A stretch of 34,737 bases of DNA from Pseudomonadota bacterium (GTDB lineage Bacteria > Pseudomonadota > Alphaproteobacteria > Rhodobacterales > Rhodobacteraceae), in NCBI GenBank assembly GCA_021813365.1, contig JAKALB010000015.1:1-34737 (forward strand), in the 5' to 3' direction. The notes below the pieces were generated by a model that saw nothing but the letters and a program-made list of their open reading frames with translations, was not told where the DNA came from and searched no databases. A program made the position numbers and the translations under genes. Shown here one piece after another: positions 15,892 to 17,755 of this stretch; position 1 is the stretch's first letter; the number at the start of each line of letters is the position of its first letter.

Positions 15892-16107
15892 TCAGGCTCG
15901 CCAGAAGGGCTTGGCCGCTTCGGCCCGGGCCTGCGCCGGATCCAGCCCGATGTCGCGCAGCAGGTGGACGTCCAGCGCACGCAGGTCGCGGCGGGTGCGT
16001 CGGCGCAGGTCGGCGGCCACAACGGCCAGGGCCAGGCGCAGCACCAGGCGCGACAGCGGCGGCAGCGAGATGCGGGACAGGTCGGGAAGGGCGAGGGCGG
16101 TGCTCAT
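15892..16107 (-). CDS. DUF1127 (YjiS-like) small Arg-rich protein
   Basis: 71 aa. The C-terminal half matches the DUF1127 pattern: RRRTRRDLRALDVHLLRDIGLDPAQARAEA, ending AAKPFWRA. The N-terminal half is hydrophobic/Leu-rich. Known of the family: short proteins in alphaproteobacteria, some shown to bind RNA and affect sRNA maturation or phosphate metabolism (CcaF1-type and Agrobacterium members). The ATG at 16107 has no Shine-Dalgarno and directly abuts the palindrome TTGTATTGATACAA, so the mRNA may be leaderless. It has its own strong terminator and is divergent from the MocR regulator, which probably controls it. Confidence 0.85.
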   Translation of the reverse strand: MSTALALPDLSRISLPPLSRLVLRLALAVVAADLRRRTRRDLRALDVHLLRDIGLDPAQARAEAAKPFWRA

Positions 16108-16196
16108 TTGTATTGATACAATCTGCGACGATCGGTAGAAATATGGATACAACCGCGCCGATCGAGTCGCCAGAGGAACATTGTCATGGGTACAAT
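16108..16196. promoter_or_regulatory. MocR operator region: one palindrome and two half-sites
   Basis: TTGTAT-TG-ATACAA at 16108-16121. GATACAA half-sites begin at 16115 and 16146, and GGTACAA begins at 16189. Their spacing of 31 and 43 bp is near three and four helical turns, so all would face the same side. They cover the mocR -35, its start site and its start codon. MocR-type regulators often bind such spaced repeats. Confidence 0.65.
16113..16141 (+). promoter_or_regulatory. mocR promoter (overlaps a minus-strand DUF1127 promoter)
   Basis: TTGATA (16113-16118), 17 nt, TAGAAA (16136-16141), 5/6 and 4/6 matches. The same two hexamers read on the minus strand as TTTCTA-17 nt-TATCAA, whose start point would be the A of the DUF1127 ATG. 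Confidence 0.6.
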
Positions 16197-17586
16197 CTGG
16201 AGGCCGAGCCTGGACCGGGCCGAGGGGCCGAAGTATCTGGCGCTGGCGCGGCGACTGCGGTCCGACATTCAGGACGGAGTGTTGTCCGAAGGCGCGCAGA
16301 TACCGCCGGTGCGCGACCTGGCCTGGGCACTGAAGGTCACGCCGGGCACCGTGGCGCGGGCCTATCAGATCGTCATGCAGGAGGGCCTGCTGAAGGCAAC
16401 GGTGGGGCGGGGCACCTTCGTTGCGGCCACCGCGCCGCGGCTGGGGCCGGCGCAGCCATCGCCGGCGGAACGTGACACGCGACCGGTGGCGGGGCGGCTG
16501 GATCTGCGCTCTCCCGGCCTGCCCGAGGTCGGACAAAGCGCCGCCATGGCCGAGAGTCTGCACCGGATTGCCGCCAGGATCAACGGCAGCTGGATGGAAT
16601 ATCCCGACCAGAACCGGGAATATGCCCTGCGTGCGGCTGTATGCGACTGGGTGGCGGGGCGGGTGCTGGGGCCGGTCGGACCGCAGGATGCGGTGCTGAC
16701 ACATGGCGGACAGAACGGGGTTGGCATTGCGCTGGCCTGCTGCCTGCGCGGCGACCGCCCGGTCGTGCTGATCGAGGAGCTGTGCTACCCCGGGTTTCGC
16801 TATGCCGCACGGATGGCGCGCGCCGAGGTGCATGGCATCGAACTGGACGCCGAGGGAATTCGCCCCGACGCGCTGGAGGCGGCCTGCCGCCGTCTGGGCG
16901 CGCAGGTGCTGATGGTCACGCCCGAGGCGCAGAATCCCACGACAGCCCGGATGAGTCTGGCGCGACGGCAGCAGATTGTATCTATCGCGCGCAGATACAA
17001 TTTGCAGATCATCGAGGATGAATGCTATGTGCCGCGCGACAATGACGGGCCGACGCTGCGGGCGCTGGCGCCAGAGCGGACCTGGTATGTCGGATCGCTC
17101 AGCAAGACATTTTCGGCCGGCCTGCGCTTTGGCTATGTGATCTGTCCGTCCGGTCAGGGCGCGGCCGGACGGCTGGCGGCGCAGCACAGCTATTTCGCGC
17201 TGTCGGTGCCGATCTCGGCCCTGGTGCTGGATCTGTTCGACAGCGGGGCCGCGGCGCGGATAAGGGCGGCGGTGATGGCCGAATTTGCCGCGCGCTGCGA
17301 ACTGGCGGTGAACCGGCTGGGTGCTTTTGCGATCCGCTGGCAGCCGGGCCTGCCCTTTCTGTGGATCGACCTGCCGCAGGGCTGGCGCGCATCTTCCTTC
17401 ATGCGGCGCGCCGAAGCTGCGGACGTGCTGATCCGGTCGGCCGACCAGTATGCCACCGTGACGGGGCGTGCGCCCAACGCGGTGCGGTTCACCCTGGCCG
17501 GCGCCGCGCCGCGCGACAGGCTGGATCAGGGATTGCAGGTGCTGGCGGGCCTGCTGCAAAGCCCGCCGTCGGACATGGGTGTCTGA
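16186..17586 (+). CDS. MocR/GntR-type regulator with aminotransferase fold
   Basis: 466 aa, the usual MocR size. N-terminal winged helix of the GntR family at about 10-80 (YLALARRLRSDIQDGVL, PPVRDLAWALKVTPGTVARAYQ, GRGTFVA). The fold-type I aminotransferase domain follows, with the PLP lysine K307 in SLSKTFSAGLRFGY, D278 in IIEDECY, N250-P251-T252 and R314. So it should bind PLP and sense an amine or PLP-related ligand. The ATG has AGAGGA 8 nt upstream. It is divergent from DUF1127, and its own promoter and start codon are covered by GATACAA elements, so autorepression is likely. A further perfect dyad lies inside codons 264-272. The ligand is unknown; it is not clearly TauR, PdxR or GabR. 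Confidence 0.9.
   Translation: MGTIWRPSLDRAEGPKYLALARRLRSDIQDGVLSEGAQIPPVRDLAWALKVTPGTVARAYQIVMQEGLLKATVGRGTFVAATAPRLGPAQPSPAERDTRPVAGRLDLRSPGLPEVGQSAAMAESLHRIAARINGSWMEYPDQNREYALRAAVCDWVAGRVLGPVGPQDAVLTHGGQNGVGIALACCLRGDRPVVLIEELCYPGFRYAARMARAEVHGIELDAEGIRPDALEAACRRLGAQVLMVTPEAQNPTTARMSLARRQQIVSIARRYNLQIIEDECYVPRDNDGPTLRALAPERTWYVGSLSKTFSAGLRFGYVICPSGQGAAGRLAAQHSYFALSVPISALVLDLFDSGAAARIRAAVMAEFAARCELAVNRLGAFAIRWQPGLPFLWIDLPQGWRASSFMRRAEAADVLIRSADQYATVTGRAPNAVRFTLAGAAPRDRLDQGLQVLAGLLQSPPSDMGV
16975..17001. promoter_or_regulatory. Intragenic dyad matching the upstream MocR sites
   Basis: ATTGTATCT, 9 nt, AGATACAAT: perfect 9-bp arms, extending to 12 of 13 matches with flanking GCAG/TTGC. It encodes I264-N272 of the MocR protein with GTA, TCT, AGA and AAT codons that I would expect to be uncommon in this GC-rich genome. 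Confidence 0.6.
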
Positions 17587-17602
17587 GGGGCGTCTGAGGG
17601 GC
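17581..17602. repeat. Two perfect tandem 11-nt units at the mocR stop
   Basis: GTCTGAGGGGC occurs twice; the first copy holds the mocR TGA. A third, degenerate copy (ATCTGGCCGGGGC) follows. Confidence 0.6.
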
Positions 17603-17755
17603 ATCTGGCCGGGGCATCCGGGCAAGCTGGGCCCTTGGCCGATCTGTGGCATTGCAGACTCAACCCCGGTGCCGCAATCCCGGATGGGCTTGACGCCGGG
17701 CATGGCGGCGAGGCCAGATGGTTGCAAGGCCAGAACAAGAACGAGCAGGTGGGCC

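Follow-up and report, generated by a model that had tools for sequence, protein, structure and literature searches.

A candidate auxiliary operator within the gene of a MocR-type regulator

Coding sequences can contain auxiliary operators, lac O2 and gal OI among them, through which DNA looping strengthens repression. These operators lie in the target gene, whereas the dyad described here lies in the regulator's own gene. For EutR/EnuR, the operator consensus is ATTGT-N6-ACAAT (as cited in PMC8739950), the same sequence as a pair of the MocR half-sites analyzed here at spacing 8. The sections of Suvorova and Rodionov's report that bear on these regulators mention direct repeats separated by two or three turns as well as a flexible linker, place a COG5457 gene in most Rhodobacterales EutR regulons, and give the search range as upstream regions, usually -350 to +50 nt (PMC5320631); because of this range, a site deep inside a gene was out of reach of that search. 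Compared with the EutR/EnuR operators, the site described here is located about 800 bp inside the gene, and its arms are one helical turn farther apart.

A regulator site within the regulator's own gene is not without precedent. C.Kpn2I is an autoregulator with a site inside its own ORF that, in the part of the source concerned with autoregulation, is said to lie near the start codon and to substitute for an upstream autoregulatory site; the authors suggested that such own-ORF sites may be widespread among C.Kpn2I-like proteins (PMC6237814). By contrast, the MocR dyads supplement a promoter array, reach up to 0.9 kb into the gene, and shift position between lineages. PhoB also has a site inside its own gene, phoB, that is conserved in roughly half of 29 species, and for which the authors leave function versus codon constraint undecided; the passages on this site describe no repeated origin at other positions (PMC10294691), whereas the MocR dyads occur at 16. 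A literature search by titles and the beginnings of abstracts, covering few subscription papers, found no report of an intragenic MocR operator. A conserved candidate operator in the own gene of a MocR regulator, together with dyads at many other positions of the orthologs and across the promoter, appears to be new.

The regulator and its control region

The window, that is, the whole 34,737-nt stretch of DNA that was analyzed, encodes a MocR protein divergently from a DUF1127 gene (Table 1). The MocR protein matches Pfam PF00392 at residues 17-79 and PF00155 at residues 122-401, both above the cut-off, and thus has the combination of a GntR winged helix-turn-helix (wHTH) domain and a fold-type I aminotransferase-like domain that defines the MocR subfamily of GntR regulators. 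The top NCBIfam model for this protein is EhuR (NF052286), with 299 bits over residues 5-463 against a cut-off of 480; it is a relative of the EhuR/EnuR ectoine regulator but, by this score, not a member of that family. The only ectoine catabolic gene tried, eutD (TIGR02993), had no match above the cut-off in any of the 16 genomes of the genus, with 569 bits against a cut-off of 613 in one other genus genome and, in the window's own assembly (91% complete), a best match with E 5.1e-14. An ectoine role for this MocR looks unlikely in its own genome, judging from this one gene. The assembly (3.36 Mb) contains one full-length and four partial matches to the MocR protein. Orthologs of mocR are present in 10 of the 16 genus genomes, including its own; the other six, some of them incomplete assemblies, contain weak, distant matches alone and no ortholog. 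The DUF1127 gene, which we take to be the COG5457 gene of the EutR regulons, is presumed to be a co-target of MocR.

Table 1. Genes and operator-like sites of the mocR/DUF1127 locus (window coordinates)
Feature	Coordinates	Strand	Description
DUF1127 gene	15892..16107	-	71 aa; divergent from mocR; PF06568 above the cut-off
Upstream site 1	16107..16122	.	TTTGTATT-GATACAAT, arm spacing 8; touches DUF1127 start codon
Upstream site 2	16146..16153	+	single half-site GATACAAC at -40
Upstream site 3	16180..16196	.	ATTGTCAT-N-GGTACAAT, spacing 9; across mocR start codon
mocR	16186..17586	+	466 aa; GntR-type wHTH and aminotransferase-like domain
Dyad, left arm	16975..16982	-	ATTGTATC, codons 264-266; half-site on the - strand
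Dyad, right arm	16994..17001	+	GATACAAT, codons 270-272

The promoter region between the two genes contains an array of three sites. Site 1 is an upstream palindrome of the EutR type, reading TTTGT-N6-ACAAT, one base off the consensus, and is the sole match in the assembly to TTGTATYGATACAA with at most one mismatch. The array is widely shared: among the 182 orthologs with upstream DNA, site 1 with spacing 8 was found in 164, a half-site of at least 8 bits at site 2 in 157, and site 3 with spacing 9 in 165. All three sites are missing in five of these orthologs, four of which come from Paracoccus. Six Paracoccus orthologs (44-47% identity) contain no exact upstream half-site motifs, and the Paracoccus regulators look as if the site or the target had changed. 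Site 3 covers the mocR start codon, and therefore the N-terminal residues are largely dictated by the operator; the window MocR begins with MGTI, and many orthologs begin with MDTI or MNTI. Site 1 adjoins the DUF1127 start codon in the window, and in several relatives the likely (predicted) start is about 10 bases off.

The internal dyad and its conservation

The internal dyad, ATTGTATCT-N9-AGATACAAT, spans positions 16975-17001 and encodes I264-N272 of MocR, with a start-to-start spacing of 19 bp between the arms. The original prediction had described it as a perfectly symmetrical operator-like element that shares its core with the sites upstream of mocR and is written in atypical codons. The 9 bp of perfect symmetry, or 12 of 13 with the flanks, are indeed there, the flanks contributing three of four matches. 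The core recurs exactly in one of the upstream sites (GATACAAT at 16115), whereas the other two upstream copies, at 16146 (GATACAAC) and 16189 (GGTACAAT), deviate from it. Codon choice is atypical for GTA (2 of 33 Val codons), AGA (1 of 49 Arg codons), and TCT (3 of 23 Ser codons), but AAT, with 3 of 8 Asn codons, is not rare in mocR. Altogether, GATACAAT is present in three copies in the window, the one upstream of mocR and the two dyad arms, against a shuffle mean of 0.18. Neither the exact dyad nor the looser pattern ATTGTAYC-N0-20-GRTACAAT has a second copy in the 3.36-Mb, 91% complete assembly.

Dyad symmetry alone is unremarkable because synonymous shuffles yield about one such dyad per gene (one perfect 9-bp dyad with a spacer of 0-30 observed in mocR, against a mean of 1.08 in 60 shuffles), and it was rejected as evidence. 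The match to the operator half-site was scored with a matrix trained on 318 half-sites from upstream copies, which may include a few near-start sites through misjudged starts. The dyad attains the maximum of this matrix, 32.8 bits (16.4 bits, the maximal half-site score, for the left arm), a value equalled in 1 of 20,000 synonymous shuffles of mocR. As would be expected of an auxiliary operator, the dyad carries the recognition sequence of the main operators at a distance from them.

Within the genus, the dyad arms are conserved. ATT-GTA-TC of the left arm is kept in all 10 orthologs; the right arm ends in TACAAT in eight and in CACAAT in two, with AAT invariant throughout. Among the 192 conserved, degenerate amino acid columns of the genus set, 14 have a single invariant codon, and the three least used of these are 265 GTA, 264 ATT, and 272 AAT (1.8% of Val, 26.7% of Ile, and 29% of Asn codons, respectively, in the genus orthologs), all located in the dyad arms. 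Sliding windows of 3, 5, and 9 codons did not clearly single out codons 264-272: the 9-codon window ranked 52 of 393 for synonymous conservation with 10 sequences and 358 of 392 with 27, and the 3-codon window at codon 264 ranked 7 of 405 and 147 of 404, respectively. Per-codon and motif-based tests were used instead. The 9-codon block forms no conservation peak because the spacer varies freely. In the Cypionkella/Pseudorhodobacter relatives, the left arm usually persists and the right arm has become TATGAT or TACGAT through synonymous and Asn-to-Asp changes; in four loci, the left arm is lost as well. Relatives in which the dyad is present include Rhodobacter sp. KR11 and Stagnihabitans tardus CYK-10.

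These patterns bear on the proposal that a DNA site is kept inside its own gene at the cost of codon choice, for which the original prediction had suggested synonymous conservation of codons 264-272 as the test and loss of the dyad at synonymous sites under a retained protein as the adverse outcome. The answer is divided. The genus retains both arms, with ATT, GTA, and AAT invariant in all 10 orthologs, but the block as a whole does not stand out, and in the Cypionkella/Pseudorhodobacter ring the right arm does decay, partly at synonymous sites. At the sequence level, the dyads found elsewhere in the gene in other lineages are stronger support for a kept DNA site than the original prediction had at hand.

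Inverted pairs across the family and around the promoter

The family survey covered 394 genomes, nearly one per genus, with orthologs at E ≤1e-60 in 164 of them, of which 149 were taken in (those left out were weaker matches and one fragment). Together with the earlier loci, the total came to 205 loci, with 188 distinct sequences that include a few truncated ones. Internal pairs were sought from codon 9 onward with a threshold of at least 18 bits and at five spacings, namely, 8 and 9, known from the upstream sites, 19, known from the dyad itself, and 18 and 29, added post hoc; the bit thresholds were likewise picked after inspection of the data. Several candidates were discarded: one match was upstream site 3 under a misjudged start, early internal matches in five loci looked like promoter sites for the same reason, after which the starts were re-estimated, and a perfect pair in another genus, outside any mocR-like ORF, was counted as chance.

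Inverted pairs of at least 18 bits at the five spacings are present in 40 of the 188 distinct genes, at 16 aligned positions, compared to a mean of 2.6 and a maximum of 6 positions in 100 rounds of synonymous shuffling. With the threshold raised to at least 21 bits, there are 12 aligned positions against a shuffle mean of 1.0 and a maximum of 4, and of the 33 inverted pairs found at this threshold across spacings 6-40, 32 fall on the five spacings, and the one that does not is the window dyad itself read in an overlapping register. The arm spacings (8-9, 18-19, and 29) differ by about one helical turn, and the extra turns between the arms suggest flexibly tethered DNA-binding heads. For the distance between the start codon and the dyad, there was no clear signal of helical phasing. 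All 40 dyads are located in the body of mocR, from +44 to +879. The other 148 orthologs (a few truncated) contain no dyad within the gene that reaches 18 bits at one of the five spacings, and such a dyad is therefore not essential.

Occurrence at 16 different positions implies, by definition, at least 15 changes, and a tree of 184 proteins, built by a quick method and with many weak inner branches, requires 18, gains and losses together; for the class at the position of the window dyad, four changes are needed among the labelled rows of the same tree. Related bacteria appear to have evolved dyads repeatedly at differing places in mocR, probably giving the bound MocR a tighter grip on its own control region. 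The dyads at aligned positions 722/724 (six genes) coincide with a CTSPEVHN-type conserved coding motif, and the protein sequence may be what drives them; excluding these leaves 34 genes at 14 positions. Pairs in the other orientations, everted and direct, are likewise more frequent in mocR than in the shuffles (29 vs 4.7 and 45 vs 9.5, respectively, the latter being 31 vs 6.5 and 14 vs 3.0 by orientation, for spacings 6-60 with relatives not merged). The proteins read IVS, IVP, IVLIQ, or IVSDTI at several other dyad positions, in place of different residues in the aligned window protein. Ile-Val-Ser/Pro triplets are written ATTGTA in 22 of 24 cases at dyad left arms, compared to 15 of 33 in the remainder of these genes, and some of these 15 are probably persisting left arms with a decayed right arm.

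As a control, we examined 608,657 bases of neighboring DNA from 61 sources, with mocR and the promoter masked. The half-site density was 2.72 per kb in this DNA and 2.80 per kb in mocR. The control contained six inverted pairs at spacings 6-60, only one of them at the five spacings, along with 15 everted and 33 direct pairs. The lone five-spacing pair, ATTGTACCAGATACAAT, is near-perfect and is located at positions 1383-1399 of an uncultured Pelagimonas record (L052), 1.6 kb upstream of the start of a mocR that itself lacks a dyad at these spacings. The gene that holds it adjoins the DUF1127 gene and, from its translation, is presumably trmFO-like. Given this pair in a neighboring gene, a distance test was performed on 60 further loci, hand-picked among genomes whose mocR has no qualifying dyad, for a total of 151 loci, with at least one genome present twice.

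Inverted pairs of at least 18 bits at spacings 6-40 were counted by distance. Upstream, the 130 kb lying at 0.12-1 kb contain 9 of them, the 133 kb at 1-2 kb contain 2, and the 301 kb farther out contain 1, so that 9 of the 12 lie within 1 kb; downstream, 3 fall within the first 1.5 kb (223 kb of DNA) and 1 in the remaining 276 kb. The excess near upstream (9 in 130 kb) over far DNA (2 in 576 kb) is significant with half-site density allowed for (p 1.5e-6). Everted and direct pairs are raised there too, with 10 and 11, respectively, in the 130 kb near upstream; the 576 kb of far DNA contain 9 and 15. Four of the nine near-upstream pairs have one of the five spacings (8 in every case), and the others have spacings of 27, 28, 28, 33, and 37; thus, half-sites clearly cluster near the promoter, but no strict geometry is evident there. 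The bin for mocR itself (38 in 207 kb) is a biased sample because the loci were partly picked for having or lacking a dyad. Two of the loci (L295 and L299) have a spacing-28 pair beginning with ATTGTACCAGTCGCCGG at a distance of about 0.9-1.0 kb on the upstream side of mocR; the longest open frame at the L299 pair resembles, as far as we can judge, a membrane transporter.

An auxiliary operator and competing readings

We consider it probable that the dyad is an auxiliary operator that is bound by the EutR-type MocR encoded by the same gene and holds the divergent mocR/DUF1127 promoter by looping or local concentration. MocR would bind the dyad about 800-870 bp inside mocR and, from there, would assist MocR at the three-site promoter array, via either a DNA loop or a raised local concentration, with tighter control of both mocR and the divergent DUF1127 gene as the result. 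The support, all of it at the sequence level, consists of the half-site common to the dyad and the upstream array, the conservation of the arms, the dyads at other positions, the helical spacing of the arms, and the concentration of pairs near the promoter. From these features, we infer binding of the dyad by MocR as the simplest reading, repression as the effect, and looping instead of roadblocking as the mode.

The main rival explanation, which we regard as unlikely, is an elongation roadblock, whereby dyad-bound MocR would stall RNA polymerase 0.8 kb into mocR, providing late negative feedback. All 40 surveyed dyads are in the mocR body, as a roadblock would have it, and C.Kpn2I, according to the part of the source that deals with its own-ORF site, binds there and blocks elongation (PMC6237814). 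Stalling so deep in the gene would, however, waste transcripts. Moreover, the pairs located 0.1-1.6 kb across the promoter, such as the one in the presumably trmFO-like gene, could not block mocR. An auxiliary operator accommodates pairs on either side of the promoter, whereas a roadblock accounts for those inside mocR alone, and the pairs across the promoter lean toward the loop or local-concentration reading.

An inert decoy, or a chance site that happens to match the operator, seems improbable. Such an interpretation would be in line with the 148 of 188 orthologs without a dyad and with the PhoB study, which, in the sections on intragenic sites, reports that most of those in E. coli lack both conservation and any detected regulation, and proposes that intragenic bacterial binding sites are mostly tolerated noise (PMC10294691). 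The MocR dyads, however, appear to bear marks of selection: all 10 genus orthologs keep the dyad via a codon that accounts for only 1.8% of their Val codons, dyads occur at 16 differing positions family-wide compared to 2.6 in shuffles, the arms are helically spaced, and pairs form a distance gradient around the promoter, while the half-sites themselves are not enriched in mocR.

A hairpin in the mocR mRNA, acting in pausing, processing, or stability, is highly improbable. The window strand does fold into a hairpin of 13 pairs and a 9-nt loop (-16 kcal/mol, z -3.4), but 5 of the 15 sequences with a dyad at the same position have a mismatch that breaks pairing and yet leaves the right arm at 9.3-13.8 bits, 15 of the 40 internal dyads have a spacing of 8 or 9, which would leave a loop of 0-1 nt, and the same element at the DUF1127 start (site 1) is probably outside the mocR transcript. 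There is similarly little to be said for an internal promoter, despite the resemblance to a -10 element of the TACAAT that the arms contain on both strands, or for a site of another factor with the same motif: the one promoter-like match in a scan of positions 16000-17700 ends in TACAAT at the mocR start, no promoter-like pair was detected by this simple scan at the dyad, two helically spaced arms are not characteristic of promoters, and the assembly has one full-length and four partial matches to the MocR protein itself.

If the dyads are auxiliary operators, they would be a natural example of a protein whose codons, and perhaps residues, are dictated by the DNA site it recognizes, and such operators may be overlooked when regulons are reconstructed from upstream sequences alone. 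Extension to the EutR-type regulators as a group is an even bet: these regulators could have a mobile layer of auxiliary operators written within about 1 kb of the promoter, mostly in their own gene, changing codons and even amino acids, with extra turns tolerated through flexible linkers, and overlooked when only upstream regions are searched. Among the 188 orthologs, the 40 that have a dyad can be compared with the 148 that lack one, a natural way to learn what benefit an auxiliary operator brings.

The left arm of the dyad is in frame at 12 of the 16 positions. In four orthologs, an upstream-type palindrome, ATTGTRTTGATACAAT, is found at about codons 18-24, at the start of the DNA-binding domain, where it encodes KYIVLIQS in place of the KYLALARR of the window protein.
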